DNA from: Gammaproteobacteria bacterium
GTDB lineage: Bacteria > Pseudomonadota > Gammaproteobacteria > Pseudomonadales > Litorivicinaceae
Reading direction: 5' to 3'
Length of the DNA stretch: 32,101 bases
Assembly (NCBI GenBank): GCA_002714245.1
Contig: PAWX01000035.1
Span: forward strand, 9,406 to 41,506
The notes beneath the pieces were generated by a model. It ran no database searches, had not been told where the DNA came from, and was given only the letters and a program-made list of their open reading frames with translations. Both the position numbers and the translations under genes were made by a program. Positions within the stretch are counted from its first letter, which is position 1; each line of letters starts with the position of its first letter. Below are positions 22,308 through 29,403 of this stretch, one piece after another.

Positions 22308-22388
22308 CTATGCACACTCGATTGTTACTGGCGGTACCAAGCTTACATCATAGACAACCCGACTGACGTCTTCGATCTCATTAATGTT
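22308..22388 (-). pseudogene. Remnant of a guaA 3' end (last ~26 codons plus stop), direct repeat of 27847-27927
   Basis: - strand translation [26 protein letters not shown] versus Gua[27 protein letters not shown]; about 63/81 nt identical by hand alignment; truncated upstream. Confidence 0.9.
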
Positions 22389-22504: not shown

Positions 22505-22510
22505 TATAAT
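22505..22510 (+). promoter_or_regulatory. Candidate -10 element (TATAAT) for the accessory operon
   Basis: Perfect TATAAT 18 nt before the ATG at 22529, RBS-like aagga at 22520-22524. No convincing -35 (acgtta at about 22482). Confidence 0.4.
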
Positions 22511-22528: not shown

Positions 22529-23437
22529 ATGATAGAAAATTATCGACACATCAACATTTTAAAGGAAAGCGTTTGCTCGAAATTTCCCTACTTCATGGGT
22601 GGATTCGACCGTCAGTATGAGAAATTTGGCGACGATTGGGCTAGTGCTTTCAACAGAGAATTAGAGATTTTTTTTGGCTCCGATGATGGTCGTATCGAAT
22701 CGGCAGCATTGGGATATGGAGCTTTCTGCTTAGACTCGATGAAACTGCAAGTTGAGTTCAATAAAACATTGGAATATCGAAATAAGACTTATGCAGAGGC
22801 GTCCTCCGAGGTCTATCAAAATCGTGATTATATGTTCGGTCTGTATCTACCGGGAATATTAATTTCTCACTACCTGTGGGAGCATCATTATGTCCAACTG
22901 AAGTTCTACGAAAAAGAAGTAATCCCTCAGATCGAAGATATCGATAATCCATTAATCTATGACGTTGGGGTTGGCACTGGTTTCTACACGAAAGAGTATT
23001 TACGGCGTGTGGAATCGAGTCAGGTCGTTGGATTTGATATGAGCCCACATTCTCTGGAACATACAGAGATGATGGTCAAGCGTTGGGATTTTTCCGAACG
23101 ATATCAATCGAGACTTGGCGACATTTTAGAACGCGATCAAACCGAACTTTGCGATGTGATCAATTCGATCGAAGTGCTAGAACACCTAGAAAATCCAGTT
23201 GAATTCCTTCACGGACTGAACAAGATGCTTCGGCCAGGGGGATTAGGCTTCATATCTGCGGCCATAAATGCGCCTAATGCAGACCATATTTATCTCTATA
23301 GGAACGCAGACGCGGTCGCAGAACAAATCCAAACCGCAGAATTTACAATTCTTAGCCAGACCGTCGACCAGGCTTATGAGCCTCGCAAATCGGGTGACAT
23401 AGTTCCAACTAATGCGGCGTTTGTCGTAACGAAATGA
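22529..23437 (+). CDS. SAM-dependent class I methyltransferase
   Basis: IYDVGVGTGFYTKEYL (motif I), VVGFDMSPHSLE, CDVINSIEVLEHLENPVEFLHGLNKMLRPGG. Confidence 0.88.
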   Translation: MIENYRHINILKESVCSKFPYFMGGFDRQYEKFGDDWASAFNRELEIFFGSDDGRIESAALGYGAFCLDSMKLQVEFNKTLEYRNKTYAEASSEVYQNRDYMFGLYLPGILISHYLWEHHYVQLKFYEKEVIPQIEDIDNPLIYDVGVGTGFYTKEYLRRVESSQVVGFDMSPHSLEHTEMMVKRWDFSERYQSRLGDILERDQTELCDVINSIEVLEHLENPVEFLHGLNKMLRPGGLGFISAAINAPNADHIYLYRNADAVAEQIQTAEFTILSQTVDQAYEPRKSGDIVPTNAAFVVTK

Positions 23438-23441
23438 GGTA

Positions 23442-23696
23442 ATGATGACTACTATCGAACAGCTACAGCCCATTTTCAGATCGGTGTTTGAGGATGACGA
23501 TTTAATTGTCACTCGTGAAATGAGTGCAAACGACGTCGAGAATTGGGACTCACTCAATCACATAACTTTGATTGTTGAAATTGAAATGTATACAGGCTTA
23601 ACACTGACAACCGAAGATCTCATAAGCTTGGCAAATGTTGGAGATTTCGTCGATATGCTTGAATCCAAGGGCTTCGTTCCAAATGGCGCTGGTTGA
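23442..23696 (+). CDS. Acyl carrier protein (phosphopantetheine-binding)
   Basis: 84 aa; NWDSLNHITLIVEIEMYTGLTLTTEDL with DSL phosphopantetheinylation Ser; 4 nt after the methyltransferase stop. Confidence 0.9.
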   Translation: MMTTIEQLQPIFRSVFEDDDLIVTREMSANDVENWDSLNHITLIVEIEMYTGLTLTTEDLISLANVGDFVDMLESKGFVPNGAG

Positions 23697-24102
23697 CATT
23701 AAAGAGGGGGATGAGGTCGTAACCGACTTCCGGGTTACTGAAGAAAAAATTTCTCAATTCGCTGTGTTGGTTGATGATTTCGCGCCGGTACATTTCGACT
23801 CTGAATTTGCTAGAAATCAGGGTTTTGATGACACTATTGCCCACGGGCTGTTTACAGCGTCTTTTGTCTCGGGTGTCCTCGGAAATTATTTGCCGGGGCC
23901 TGAGAGCGTGATTAATGAGCTGAATTTAAAATACCACCAACCTGTCTATAAAGGTCAAACGATCCAGGTTCTCGTATCAGTCCAGCGTGTTGTCCACGCG
24001 GTAAGTGCAGTGTACCTAACAATAACTATCTCTGAGAAATCAAGCTCAAAAAAAGTCGTTTCTGGACGGGCAATATGTAGCTTCCCGTCTAAGGACGTTT
24101 AA
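23683..24102 (+). CDS. MaoC-like (R)-hydratase/dehydratase family protein (ORF opens at 23635; start at 23683)
   Basis: FAVLVDDFAPVHFDSEFARNQGFDDTIAHGLFTASFVSGVLGNYLPGP = MaoC/R-hydratase hot-dog signature with Asp/His dyad; overlaps the ACP by 14 nt. Confidence 0.9.
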   Translation: MALVDIKEGDEVVTDFRVTEEKISQFAVLVDDFAPVHFDSEFARNQGFDDTIAHGLFTASFVSGVLGNYLPGPESVINELNLKYHQPVYKGQTIQVLVSVQRVVHAVSAVYLTITISEKSSSKKVVSGRAICSFPSKDV

Positions 24103-24106
24103 AACC

Positions 24107-25213
24107 GTGAACCTTAAATTAGTAGACCAGTTACCTGGAGAGTATCTGGCAGACTTAGTTCAATTCATCCGACAAAATCATGGTGAAGAGCATGTCATGA
24201 CGTTGCCAATAATGCTGGATTATTATTTTAAAGATCTCGAAAATAGTAATTACAATATCGTTTGTGCTCTTGAAGCTAAAAGAATCGTCGGCATTCTCGG
24301 ATACGTGCCATCAAAGATCAGGTGGGGAGGCACAACGACCGAGGGGGTCTGGACATCTCACTGGACCGTAGATAGTGCTTATAGGCATGGTATAGGTATT
24401 TTACTTATGAAGCGGCTCCAGGAGCTGTACTCGATAATCCTCGGTCAAGGAGCGAACCAGCTCAACAAAAGCCTTGTGACCAAAATGGGACACCACTTCC
24501 TCGACGCCATACCACGATCAGTAAAGATTTATAACCGAAAGAGGTTAAATAAGATATTTCCAAAGCACAATCTACACGAGTTATTGCCCAGCTCTGAACC
24601 TGAAATACCTAGCTTAGACTCATTAAGATTTGAGGATATCCAATTAACTGACTTCGTAAATGAATCAAACTTCAGGCCTGACTGGGAGTACTATAAGTAT
24701 AATCATTATGGAACGCTACGAGACTATTCTTTTTTAAAAAAGAAATACCTTCAAACTCCTGCATTCAGGTACGAATTCTGTCTATTCGAGAACAGAGATA
24801 AACCGTATTTGTTAGTTTTTAGACTAGAGAGAACATCGGGTCAGTCTGTATTTAATTGCATAAGAATAGTTGAAATAATAATACCAGACGATCACCAAGC
24901 ACCTATTATCTTAGGCGCCATGCTAATGTATTTGGATTCATTCGCAAGAGAGCACGACGTCACGTTTTCTGACTTTTATTGTACAAATGTTGAGTTACAT
25001 AAACACCTCCAGCTGTTTGGGTTTGCGTCTGATGTGAATCATATTCTACCCAACCTACTCAATCCGATCGTTGAGAGACCGAGGGATCAAAATGTTGAAC
25101 TTTTTCTGAAAGACGGGACAAGACCGTCGTGGGATGAGCTATACATAACAAAATCCGATGGCGATCAGGATCGACCGAGCATAAGCAATGTAATCAGAGG
25201 TGGAAAGAATTGA
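24107..25213 (+). CDS. GNAT-like N-acyltransferase, GTG start
   Basis: IVCALEAKRIVGILGYVPSK...TSHWTVDSAYRHGIGILLMKRLQEL resembles a GNAT acyl-CoA/ACP binding core; 368 aa, starts 5 nt after the MaoC stop. Confidence 0.7.
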   Translation: MNLKLVDQLPGEYLADLVQFIRQNHGEEHVMTLPIMLDYYFKDLENSNYNIVCALEAKRIVGILGYVPSKIRWGGTTTEGVWTSHWTVDSAYRHGIGILLMKRLQELYSIILGQGANQLNKSLVTKMGHHFLDAIPRSVKIYNRKRLNKIFPKHNLHELLPSSEPEIPSLDSLRFEDIQLTDFVNESNFRPDWEYYKYNHYGTLRDYSFLKKKYLQTPAFRYEFCLFENRDKPYLLVFRLERTSGQSVFNCIRIVEIIIPDDHQAPIILGAMLMYLDSFAREHDVTFSDFYCTNVELHKHLQLFGFASDVNHILPNLLNPIVERPRDQNVELFLKDGTRPSWDELYITKSDGDQDRPSISNVIRGGKN

Positions 25214-26841
25214 AACTGGCGATACTCAGTAATGTAAGCACCCAATTTTTAACCCAAAATTTAAGTGTACTCCTCAAAAAAAAATATGAAGTCGAAGTTT
25301 TAGAAACTAGTTTTGGTTCTTGGAAAATCTGTAGCAGGGGTCTAGATCCAACATTAAACGACTTTGAACCCGATTCAATGCTTTTGTTCCTGTCTTCAAC
25401 TGCTGTTTCACCGGATAGACTGTCAAACGGTCAATTTCTCGAAGAAGTCAAGCAATCGATTGTTTCAATCACCGAGTGGTTTAGTGGAAAGCTATATATT
25501 ACCGGAATAGACTACCCAGAATCTGCTTGCCTTGACACCTCCCTCAAGCTAACGATCGATCATATTAACAGAGAGCTGTTTTTACTTAGGCAACAGGAAA
25601 AATATATATTCGTTGATCTATTCGACTTATTTTTTTTTGAGAAAGCCGAAACTTTTTTACCACGTAAATATCACGGGCTCGGGATATTCTCATTTCATCC
25701 AAAATACTATGAGGCTATTAGTCAACGTATTTCCAATATCATTGACGCGACAATTTCTCGTCCAATAAAAACTATTTTCGTAGACTTAGACAATACGCTA
25801 TGGCCGGGGATACTAGGCGATGAGGGCATTAAAGGAATCAATCTGGCACCGGATTCAGCTGCCCTGCCGCATCTAGACCTACAATACCTCCTAAAAAAGC
25901 TAAAACAGAGCGGCGTGATACTGAACATCGCGTCAAAAAACGATATTGATATTGTGAAGGAATTCTTTAACGTCCGAAGAGAGGAACTCTTACTCCATTG
26001 GGAGGATTTCGCTACCATTAAAGCCAACTGGGAGCCAAAATCCGCAAATATAAACGAAGCGCTTGCTGAGTTGAACTTGACACACTCGGGCGTTGTATTC
26101 ATTGACGATAGTAAGTTCGAACAAAACGAAGTGTCTTCGGCTCTACCGGAAATAATCGTTTTGAAAATGCCAGATGAGCCATACGAGTGGAACAAATACC
26201 TTGTAGATTCAAACCTCTTCCACACTCCAGTCGTTACCGGAGAGGACGTAATTCGCACGCAATTTTATCAGTATGAAGGAAAACGTTTAGCCTCGAGTAA
26301 ATCGATGTCAAGAACTGATTATCTCCAGTCGCTGCAACTAGTATTACGAGCGCAACCAGTATCATCCGAAAATATTGATCGGGCGATACAACTCCTAAAT
26401 AAAACTAATCAGTTTAATATCAAGGGTGCACAAATCGATTACGAAGAGGTAAAAAGATTTACCGCGGATGAAAGTAGTTTTTTTTGGCTATTCACGTTGC
26501 AGGATATTTATTCAAATTATGGGATCGTCTCATGTGTCTACGGTACTGAATATGGGGAACACACACTAGAAATTGAGGGTTGGTGCCTCTCATGTCGTGC
26601 CTTTACTCGAAACGTAGAAAATTCAATCCTACAATTTCTGTGTACCAACTACCCGCAGTGCAAGGCTATGTCTATAGCTTTTAACGCAACATCAAAGAAT
26701 AAATATGCGAAGAACTATTTTGTGAATAATAGTTTCAAAAAAACATCGTCCCAAGAACCAATCGTTAAATTTACTAAGGCCAGTAATATTATCATCAATG
26801 AGACAACTTATATCACACAAGAAATAGATGAGAACCAATGA
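25210..26841 (+). CDS. FkbH-like protein (HAD-superfamily phosphatase subfamily IIIC), TTG start
   Basis: TIFVDLDNTLWPGILGDEGIKGINL, LNIASKNDIDIVKEFF, FIDDSKFEQNEV HAD motifs; FNIKGAQIDYEEVKRF and C-terminal GNAT-like region typical of FkbH. Confidence 0.92.
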   Translation: MKLAILSNVSTQFLTQNLSVLLKKKYEVEVLETSFGSWKICSRGLDPTLNDFEPDSMLLFLSSTAVSPDRLSNGQFLEEVKQSIVSITEWFSGKLYITGIDYPESACLDTSLKLTIDHINRELFLLRQQEKYIFVDLFDLFFFEKAETFLPRKYHGLGIFSFHPKYYEAISQRISNIIDATISRPIKTIFVDLDNTLWPGILGDEGIKGINLAPDSAALPHLDLQYLLKKLKQSGVILNIASKNDIDIVKEFFNVRREELLLHWEDFATIKANWEPKSANINEALAELNLTHSGVVFIDDSKFEQNEVSSALPEIIVLKMPDEPYEWNKYLVDSNLFHTPVVTGEDVIRTQFYQYEGKRLASSKSMSRTDYLQSLQLVLRAQPVSSENIDRAIQLLNKTNQFNIKGAQIDYEEVKRFTADESSFFWLFTLQDIYSNYGIVSCVYGTEYGEHTLEIEGWCLSCRAFTRNVENSILQFLCTNYPQCKAMSIAFNATSKNKYAKNYFVNNSFKKTSSQEPIVKFTKASNIIINETTYITQEIDENQ

Positions 26842-27758
26842 TTATCATGTATCACTATGTTCGGCTATCCGATTCTTTCACTTCGAAGGTAAATAACTTT
26901 TATGACTTCGATTTATTTAAGAGAAATATTCTAGAACTACTCGAAGACGGAAAAGTTTTTTTAGACCCCAAATCTCTAACGATCGAGCAGTGGCTTGAAG
27001 TAGCGGATGATCAGGATAACATAGTCTTAACTTTCGACGATGGATACATTGATCATGCCCGGCTGGTGGCCCCATTCCTTGCGGAAATTGGTGTGCATGG
27101 ACTCTTTTTCGTACCGGCAAAGATACTAGTCACCCGCGAAGTGCTCTTGGTAAACAAAATACATCTTTTGCTAAATAAATTTAAGGGTCGTGAAGCCTAT
27201 TTAATGGATCACTTAATCCAATATTTAAATCAAATTGAGCAAATCAGTACCGATTATATAAGTGAACTAAAAACTAAATATTTTAAAAAAGGTAAATATG
27301 ACGATGCCGGTACTAACTTTCTAAAACGGGTATTCCAGAAAAAATTTGATAGTCGCCGACTGAGTTTATTTTGTGAGTCATTTTTAGATGATGAACCAAT
27401 AAACTTTGATCTTCTCAGAGATGAGCTATACATGTCTTCTGACGACTTTCGGTCGCTTCAGGAGCAGGGCCACAGCCTCGGGTTACATGGTTTTAATCAC
27501 CACTATTTGAGTTCACTTTCGAAGGCTAAGCAAAAGATAGACTTTGGAGAGAGCATTAAGGTTTTTCGAGAATTCGGTATTTCGCAGGACTTACTGGTCG
27601 CTTATCCTTATGGGGACTACAATAATGAAACATTGGATATATGCAAAGAGATTCAGATAAAGGCTGGTTTTATCGACAATCGTAATAACACCAAAGCTCA
27701 TTGTCCGAATTTGACCCTGCCAAGAATTGACTGCAATGATTTTTTTATTAACCACTGA
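26838..27758 (+). CDS. Polysaccharide deacetylase family (NodB homology) protein
   Basis: NIVLTFDDGYIDHARLVAPFLAEIGVHGLFFVPAKI (TFDDG), LGLHGFNHHYLSSLS, VAYPYGDYNNET; ATGA overlap with the fkbH-like stop. Confidence 0.9.
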   Translation: MIIMYHYVRLSDSFTSKVNNFYDFDLFKRNILELLEDGKVFLDPKSLTIEQWLEVADDQDNIVLTFDDGYIDHARLVAPFLAEIGVHGLFFVPAKILVTREVLLVNKIHLLLNKFKGREAYLMDHLIQYLNQIEQISTDYISELKTKYFKKGKYDDAGTNFLKRVFQKKFDSRRLSLFCESFLDDEPINFDLLRDELYMSSDDFRSLQEQGHSLGLHGFNHHYLSSLSKAKQKIDFGESIKVFREFGISQDLLVAYPYGDYNNETLDICKEIQIKAGFIDNRNNTKAHCPNLTLPRIDCNDFFINH

Positions 27759-27783
27759 AACCCAGAGTAAACCGATAGCTGGT

Positions 27784-27816
27784 GGTGATCTGCAACTCTA
27801 CAGATCACTATTTTTA
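27784..27816 (+). terminator. Rho-independent-type terminator ending the accessory operon
   Basis: Perfect 8-bp inverted repeat gtgatctg (27785-27792) / cagatcac (27801-27808), 8-nt loop, followed by tatttttat; 26 nt after the deacetylase stop. Confidence 0.7.
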
Positions 27817-27846: not shown

Positions 27847-29402
27847 CTATTCCCACTCGATCGTCGCCGGTGGTTTCGAGCTCACGTCATACACAACCCG
27901 GCTGACGTCCTCGATCTCGTTAATAATTCTACCAGAGACCCGTTCGATAAATTCGTAAGGTAAATGCGCCCAGCGTGCTGTCATGAAGTCAATTGTTTCG
28001 ACGGCGCGCAAGGCAATCACAGGCGCATATCGACGCTGATCACCTACCACCCCAACAGAATTTACTGACAAAAAAACGGCAAATGCCTGTGACACCTTGT
28101 CGTATAGATCTGCCCTCCTTAACTCCTCGATGAAGATATGATCGGCTTTCCGGAGAATGTCCGCCGAATGTTTGTGGACCTCACCCAAAATCCGAACCCC
28201 AAGGCCAGGGCCCGGGAACGGGTGCCGGTAGACCATTGATTTGGGAAGACCAAGCGTCTCACCCAAAATCCTCACCTCATCTTTGAAGAGCTCACGCAAG
28301 GGCTCGACAAGCTCCATACGCATCTCTTCCGGCAAGCCACCTACATTATGATGACTCTTAATCACGTGTGCTTTACCTGAAGCAGCGCCCGCGGATTCGA
28401 TCACGTCAGGATAAATTGTCCCCTGTGCTAAGAAACGAACGTCCTTCAACTGCATTGCCTGCTCTTCAAATACCTCGATGAAGGTCCGGCCAATTATCTT
28501 GCGTTTACGCTCCGGATCTAGTTCGCCTTTCAAGGCGGTCAAGAAACGTGCTTCGGCGTTGGCTCGAATAACGCGTACCCCTAAATTCTGGGCAAATGTT
28601 TCCATCACCTGAGCGCCTTCATTTAGGCGTAAGAGTCCGTTGTCAACGAACACACACACCAACTGATTACCGATAGCTCTGTGCAATAATGCCGCAACTA
28701 CCGATGAATCTACACCACCAGATAAGCCGAGAAGAACCTGTCCGTCGCTGACCTGTTCACGGACTTTTGTAATTGCGTCATCAATGATGTTTTCAGGGGT
28801 CCACTCGCGACGACATCCACAAATCGCATGTGCAAACTTTGCAAGTATCTTGGAGCCACCCTCAGAGTGGGTTACCTCCGGATGAAACTGCAGCCCATAG
28901 ATCGCTCGTTCCTCATCGGCCATAGCGGCGATAGGTGCATGATCACTCGAACCGATCACTTTGAATCCTGGGGGGAGATCCGTGACTCGGTCACCGTGAC
29001 TCATCCATACAGACAGAGAGCCTGTGTCCGACACCCCAGTAAGAAACGACTCCTCTTTTTCAATGACAAGATCCGTGTGACCAAACTCTCGTAAATCACT
29101 TGATTCGACACGGCCACCGAGCTCCTGTGCCAAAGCCTGCATGCCATAACAAATACCCAACACAGGAACATTCAGGTCATAAACTTCCTTCGGAATTTTC
29201 CATCCGACCGCGTCTGTGGTGGACTCTGGGCCACCCGATAAGATGACTCCCTTTGGGGCAGACGCTCGAATCCGAAGCGGCTCCACGTCACACGGTAATA
29301 TTTCTGAATAAACGCCATGTTCACGTACGCGACGCGCAATTAGTTGAGTGTACTGAGAGCCAAAGTCGAGGATCAGTAATCGATCATCATGAAGACTCTT
29401 CA

Positions 29403-29403
<1 letters not shown>
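27847..29403 (-). CDS. guaA: GMP synthase (glutamine-hydrolysing)
   Basis: 518 aa; [12 protein letters not shown] amidotransferase, [18 protein letters not shown]-loop, C-terminal [17 protein letters not shown]. Confidence 0.98.

Follow-up and report, generated by a model that had tools for sequence, protein, structure and literature searches.

A guaA-linked six-gene operon of Litorivicinaceae as a candidate mobile acyl-remodelling cassette for nonulosonic acids or related amino sugars

What would a bacterium make with an FkbH-family protein and a free-standing acyl carrier protein (ACP) that are encoded together with an acyltransferase and a polysaccharide deacetylase? This question is raised by a six-gene operon at positions 22529-27758 of a 32,101-nt stretch of DNA (hereafter the window; assembly GCA_002714245.1, contig PAWX01000035.1, positions 9,406 to 41,506) from a gammaproteobacterium of the Litorivicinaceae, presumably of marine origin. 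We propose that the operon probably puts a glycerate-derived group in place of a small acyl group on a sialic-acid-like sugar of bacteria. The operon as a mobile acyl-remodelling cassette for a legionaminic/pseudaminic-type nonulosonic acid, or for an amino-sugar precursor, is the reading that we favour, with somewhat better than even confidence.

The original prediction from the sequence had described six genes with five tight junctions, and this description is borne out by the coordinates of six same-strand open reading frames (ORFs). The junctions in the order methyltransferase, ACP, MaoC, GNAT, FkbH and deacetylase are +4, -14, +4, -4 and -4 nt, the 14-nt ACP/MaoC overlap following from a MaoC start at 23683, and the operon of a congener (G012) has the same five junctions. 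The genes had also been read as one transcription unit between a TATAAT box and a hairpin terminator. This agrees with the junctions and with a strong hairpin followed by a U-tract at 27781..27812 (+; -15 kcal/mol, z = -4.9), which is a probable terminator. On the other hand, the operon promoter is unproven, because the promoter scan listed no -35/-10 pair at the TATAAT box (22505..22510, +; a possible -10 element) and the same position reads TACAAT in G012. A repeat of the guaA tail, the setting in an island and the neighbourhoods of pseudaminic/legionaminic genes, all described below, had escaped the original prediction, which also assigned no function to the deacetylase in the pathway.

Most of the six proteins, all encoded on the forward strand, are assigned by profile. 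The first gene (22529..23437) encodes a class I S-adenosylmethionine methyltransferase with an extra N-terminal region (PF08242, 51 bits), which aligns at 26% over 251 aa with a methyltransferase whose gene lies with those of ACP and FkbH in a pseudaminic acid locus (L063); its dN/dS between the window and G012 is about 0.09. The ACP (23442..23696; PF00550 PP-binding, 21.2 bits, cut-off 20.8) carries a DSL motif whose Ser37 is unchanged in 6 relatives. The MaoC-like (R)-specific hydratase/dehydratase (23683..24102; PF01575, 67 bits) is closest among solved structures to the (R)-specific enoyl-CoA hydratase 1iq6 (E 5e-14), and the hydratase-motif Asp and His are both retained in its DFAPVH. FkbH, a HAD-IIIC protein with a TTG start (25210..26841; TIGR01686, 261 bits, cut-off 147), keeps D192/D194 and T196 of DLDNT as well as K243 and D299/D300, unchanged in 7 relatives. 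The last gene (26838..27758) encodes a NodB-type (CE4) deacetylase (PF01522 Polysacc_deac_1, 66 bits in two stretches), in which an insertion of about 100 aa separates motifs 1 and 2. D67 and D68 of motif 1 and H217 and H221 of motif 2 (HxxxH) are unchanged in 7 sequences, and the motif 3 Arg (RxPY) is not kept, (A/C)YPY standing there in 7/7 relatives. No strongly hydrophobic stretch was found at its N-terminus; therefore the enzyme is probably cytoplasmic and a cytoplasmic sugar is its expected substrate.

The fourth gene (24107..25213, GTG start) matches no Pfam or NCBIfam model, but its homologue at L058 does match GNAT models (PF00583, 26.3 bits, cut-off 20.7). Its predicted structure (pLDDT 65, pTM 0.68) has a bilobal GNAT fold, with the GNAT 2ozg as the top Foldseek match (E 2.6e-10, probability 1.00), followed by N-myristoyltransferases and a glucosamine N-acetyltransferase. 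Through the homologue and the predicted bilobal fold, the label of a double-GNAT acyltransferase holds for the window protein.

From these predicted activities we infer a pathway, with its acyl group, its acceptor and the order of its steps, in which FkbH would load a glyceryl unit from 1,3-bisphosphoglycerate onto the free-standing ACP. In polyketide pathways, FkbH-like proteins have been proposed to form glyceryl-ACP (PMC7489565). The methyltransferase may then O-methylate the carrier-bound acyl unit or the sugar, and MaoC may dehydrate the acyl unit toward pyruvyl or, where an SDR is fused to it, toward lactyl. The NodB-type deacetylase would remove an N-acetyl group from the acceptor amino sugar to free an amine, to which the double-GNAT would transfer the ACP-bound acyl group. 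The modified sugar would then be carried by flagellin or a surface glycan.

To see whether the set recurs, relatives of the GNAT were searched for in 369 class, 399 phylum and 48 order genomes (overlapping sets) and in plasmids. Their neighbourhoods were read piecewise, with small purpose-built HMMs beyond Pfam and NCBIfam, and matches weaker than about 1e-10 were taken as leads only. Relatives called alphaproteobacterial here are those of the same phylum outside the class sample, which is the sole basis of this class label. There were 13 non-congeneric GNAT relatives, not counting a match in G312 (E 9e-4 over 57 residues) that was too weak. FkbH lies within about 10 kb of the GNAT in 8/13 (G447, G217, G806, G465, G471, G468, G462 and a Subdoligranulum plasmid), and a deacetylase lies within the same distance in G209, G447, G217 (here about 13 kb away), G806, G465, G471, G468 and G540. 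MaoC is as close to the GNAT in five relatives, fused to an SDR in G217, G471 and G468; by locus, MaoC-SDR fusions occur at L059, L101, L102 and L109, and separate MaoC and SDR at L106. ACP was found by profile near the GNAT in G447, G217, G540, G591 and Subdoligranulum, and by position and DSL motif only in G465 and G471. These last two, of alphaproteobacterial type, have deacetylase, ACP-like ORF, FkbH and GNAT, with MaoC-SDR also in G471. The plasmid of Subdoligranulum (Clostridia) carries FkbH-ACP-MaoC-SDR-GNAT, the deacetylase being absent, and was the only record that the plasmid scans with two GNATs returned. No partner genes were found around the GNATs of G452 and G477.

Thus, unrelated Gamma- and Alphaproteobacteria share a core of ACP, FkbH, double-GNAT and NodB-type deacetylase, to which MaoC or MaoC-SDR is often added. 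Chance neighbourhood was rejected as an explanation, since FkbH occurs in 7/97 relative genomes, as against 8/13 of the non-congeneric GNAT relatives within 10 kb. The original prediction had suggested looking for all six families together: the core four do recur beyond the genus, whereas MaoC is not found everywhere and the methyltransferase is the variable part, with its only clear distant homologue in G057 of the same order. On this basis we suggest, tentatively and with less confidence than for the window operon itself, a widespread and undescribed module of deacetylation and re-acylation, in which the donors would be FkbH-derived C3 units on ACP instead of acyl-CoA, the acceptors nonulosonic acids, and the transferases a new double-GNAT family.

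The acceptor is suggested by the neighbourhoods of these relatives. In G447, FkbH-ACP-GNAT-deacetylase adjoins LegB, NeuC, NeuB, a PtmE-like CBS-NTP-transferase and the flagellin-modifying Maf; in G217, GNAT, MaoC-SDR, FkbH, ACP and deacetylase are mixed with NeuB, NeuC and a CMP-synthetase; and in G806, FkbH, GNAT, MaoC and deacetylase lie close to LegB/LegC. G057 has PseG (239 bits, cut-off 154) and PseI (504, cut-off 340) together with the methyltransferase homologue, ACP, FkbH and WbuX. Linkage of FkbH, ACP and methyltransferase genes to a nonulosonic locus is seen at L063, L060 and L059. When the deacetylase subfamily was used for the reverse test, NeuB was within about 15 kb in 4/7 other genomes (G447, G217, G258 and G339). 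Assuming that a genome of 3 Mb has about one NeuB, our own rough estimate for a chance NeuB in 20-30 kb is about 1%; therefore this co-location is not chance, with the caveat that glycan genes cluster generally. Transfer to an amino sugar, which the original prediction had guessed, is supported by these GNAT, deacetylase, FkbH and methyltransferase relatives in legionaminic/pseudaminic loci.

The window genome encodes flagellins, and on a separate contig (C27) it has a legionaminic acid (Leg) locus with LegB, LegC, NeuB, NeuC and NeuD over cut-off and an N-acetyl-sugar amidotransferase. On the same contig (L074, 15844-18511), a second, shorter NeuB homologue lies next to a gene resembling asparagine synthetase, an arrangement shared with the Pse5Am cluster of Tannerella. 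In G012, a pseudaminic-type locus has as neighbours an ORF for a flagellin C-terminal region and a TPR protein. Such a TPR protein adjoining flagellin and pseudaminic acid (Pse) genes was observed at L077 (10222-13258) and L080 (4957-9416) in this genus without Maf, and it is possibly an FlmG-like flagellin glycosyltransferase. Separately, flagellin N-terminal domains were seen on frames of 850-1705 codons in G009:C20, G013:C31, G012:C8 and G001:C1, which is unusual for gammaproteobacteria.

Among the nearest known systems is that for the dimethylglyceroyl-Pse of Campylobacter. Cj1295 of C. jejuni, needed for the dimethylglyceroyl sugar, is presumably of the DUF2172/DUF4910 type. No such gene is among the six of the window, and one adjoins FkbH in Maritalea: on a plasmid of this organism (L109, 4708-10028), FkbH, a MaoC-SDR fusion (which also matches ACP weakly) and a protein of the DUF4910 type lie between pseB and NeuB. 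The cj1302 gene of C. jejuni has an fkbH domain, and both a strain with a cj1302 pseudogene and a strain lacking cj1301 are without the dimethylglyceroyl sugar (PMC7099621); for the system known from NCTC 11168 (cj1295-cj1302 region), loss of cj1295, cj1301 or cj1302 accompanies loss of the sugar (PMC7099621, PMC3068675). The link of cj1302 and cj1301 to the sugar is a correlation over two strains. The published masses are m/z 391 and 317 (PMC7099621, PMC3068675). By our own arithmetic their difference, 74, equals dimethylglyceroyl (116) minus acetyl (42), which agrees with an acyl group standing in place of N-acetyl in Campylobacter. The resemblance, drawn here from published descriptions, lies in an fkbH-domain gene, which in C. 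jejuni and in relatives of the window operon sits in a nonulosonic/flagellin locus, and in an O-methylated, glyceric-acid-derived acyl group in place of N-acetyl, which for the window is our proposal. The analogy is stronger than the original prediction knew. On the other hand, the window has a NodB-type deacetylase and MaoC, and its genes are mobile as an operon of their own, apart from the sugar locus. Among the papers searched, nothing was found on Cj1298-Cj1300, and none joined FkbH with deacetylase, GNAT, MaoC and O-antigen.

Pse5Am7Gra of Tannerella forsythia also has an N-glyceroyl group, at C-7 of pseudaminic acid, and two papers on this glycan describe the responsible genes and the mechanism as unknown (PMC6120980, PMC6388019). 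The cassette is a candidate for this N-glyceroyl step. A different precedent is offered by rhizobia.

There, NodB and NodA, with the carrier protein NodF and the methyltransferase NodS, perform N-deacetylation and then N-acylation on chitin oligosaccharides. The logic is alike in that an N-deacetylated sugar receives its new acyl group from a carrier protein and that a methyltransferase is present, but this is an analogy and not membership: the Nod acyltransferase belongs to another family, FkbH is lacking, and the group is a fatty acyl and not C3.

This precedent also serves another reading, in which the same chemistry acts on an ordinary amino sugar (QuiNAc4N-, GlcNAc- or anthrose-like) of lipopolysaccharide, capsule or exopolysaccharide. 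The window, L100-L103 and L098 have no nonulosonic genes beside the cassette, and the weaker deacetylase relatives at L121 and L122 sit among AsnB-type glycan genes with no NeuB. We nevertheless hold this reading to be rather unlikely, given that parts of the cassette lie inside Leg/Pse loci in G447, G217, G806 and G057, that the deacetylase does so in G258 and G339, and that the window genome has a Leg locus. With either acceptor, the acyl group might be something other than (methyl)glyceryl, in that MaoC and an SDR in trans would convert it to pyruvyl- or lactyl-ACP and the GNAT would add lactyl or pyruvyl. By our own reasoning, glyceryl-ACP is a beta-hydroxyacyl thioester, which MaoC could dehydrate to enolpyruvyl, and MaoC is a conserved partner, often with the SDR as described above, by fusion at four loci and as a separate pair at L106. 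We regard such a product as a serious contender but as unlikely, because MaoC was not found in G447, G465 and G209, the window operon has no SDR, and the methyltransferase implies a hydroxyl for methylation. A small natural-product pathway seems very improbable. FkbH, a free ACP and a methyltransferase are common to such cassettes (PMC7489565), namely those of tetronate glycerate utilisation and of methoxymalonyl-ACP, the latter with an O-methyltransferase. In contrast, the window operon has no FabH-like protein, E2-type acyltransferase or polyketide synthase (PKS), nor the two FkbI/FkbK-type acyl-ACP dehydrogenases of the methoxymalonyl type, and its deacetylase and GNAT are alien to these cassettes. 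Moreover, FkbH relatives in PKS-like clusters (Methylosinus and Pseudalkalibacillus plasmids) have no annotated GNAT and deacetylase. We therefore rejected this pathway. The original idea of an FkbH/ACP system working without PKS or nonribosomal peptide synthetase (NRPS) modules is strengthened, as no PKS/NRPS cluster surrounds any GNAT-bearing relative among those inspected.

Several points weigh against the preferred reading of a cassette for nonulosonic acids. The window operon is not adjacent to the proposed substrate pathway, and no nonulosonic genes were found in the stretches read at L100-L103. NeuB is present in 2/2 operon-bearing and 3/9 operon-less congeners, an association no stronger than expected by chance (Fisher p ~0.18, n=11), and the window genome is only 78% complete. 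None of the 8 genomes of the genus that were searched has Maf (PF01973), so that Maf-dependent transfer is unsupported there. In addition, a plain glyceroyl end product would leave MaoC without an obvious role, and the confidence of the GNAT structure model is only moderate.

The operon is a foreign, horizontally acquired insert, as argued by its low GC (0.405, the two flanks having 0.50 and 0.515), its position between guaA and a conserved gene, its rarity among congeners and a decayed copy of the guaA tail. The 3' end of guaA is known as the integration site of GIsul2, with the core GAGTGGGA (PMC9376610). In the window, guaA (GMP synthase; 27847..29403, reverse strand; NF000848, 801 bits) still carries GAGTGGGA at its 3' end, the insertion site. 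A direct repeat of this end at 22308..22385 (matching 27847-27924; 79.5% over 78 bp, E 1e-14), directly upstream of the operon, is an att-like relic of the island boundary, and G012 has a comparably decayed copy at the same position. The ancestral gene order is guaA, cyclase-TPR gene, GST and EamA, and in G005, without the insert, guaA is 258 bp from the cyclase gene. From the repeat, the empty site and the GAGTGGGA core, we conclude that the operon came in as the cargo of an old guaA island. This island has no integrase of its own, none being seen among the ORFs that the repeats enclose. As in GIsul2-type islands, the insert sits at the 3' end of guaA, the live guaA has GAGTGGGA and a copy of the guaA tail lies at the far end; unlike these islands, the window insert lacks an integrase, has a decayed far boundary and carries nothing but metabolic genes (5.5 kb). 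Insertion at the end of guaA has recurred in this genus. In G020 (L041, G020:C4, 13755-17754), a 242-bp guaA-tail repeat of 95% lies past 3.75 kb of cargo with HipA/HipB-like and other toxin-antitoxin-like ORFs, named by eye from their translations.

Within the genus, the FkbH gene and operon are present in 1/21 congeners (G012) and absent from 20/21; the FkbH search of contigs returned one close match, in the same congener, and unrelated FkbH loci. The operon of G012 lies at the same place with all six frames open, and its proteins are 78-90% identical to those of the window (dN 0.05-0.12, dS 0.19-1.06). It is thus under purifying selection between the two genomes. G005 appears nearer to the window genome than G012 in core genes and yet has no operon; therefore we assume loss in G005 or exchange between the window genome and G012. 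A second contig of the G012 assembly (L036, G012:C80, 1-2135) has a full guaA followed by GST with no operon, which suggests strain mixture or contamination in this metagenome-assembled genome.

Finally, what is known of the enzymology of the Campylobacter dimethylglyceroyl-Pse comes so far from the phenotypes of single genes. With all the activities needed predicted in one compact cassette that distant bacteria have kept, the N-glyceroyl question becomes testable in vitro. If our reading of the operon is true, a carrier-protein acyl donor and a deacetylase step would be added to the tailoring of nonulosonic acids, and tailoring of surface sugars would be shown to move as cargo at a guaA hotspot. 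If the wider module is also true, it would travel as mobile cargo apart from the sugar pathway, and may explain N-glyceroyl, O-methylglyceroyl or lactyl nonulosonic acids that lack known genes.

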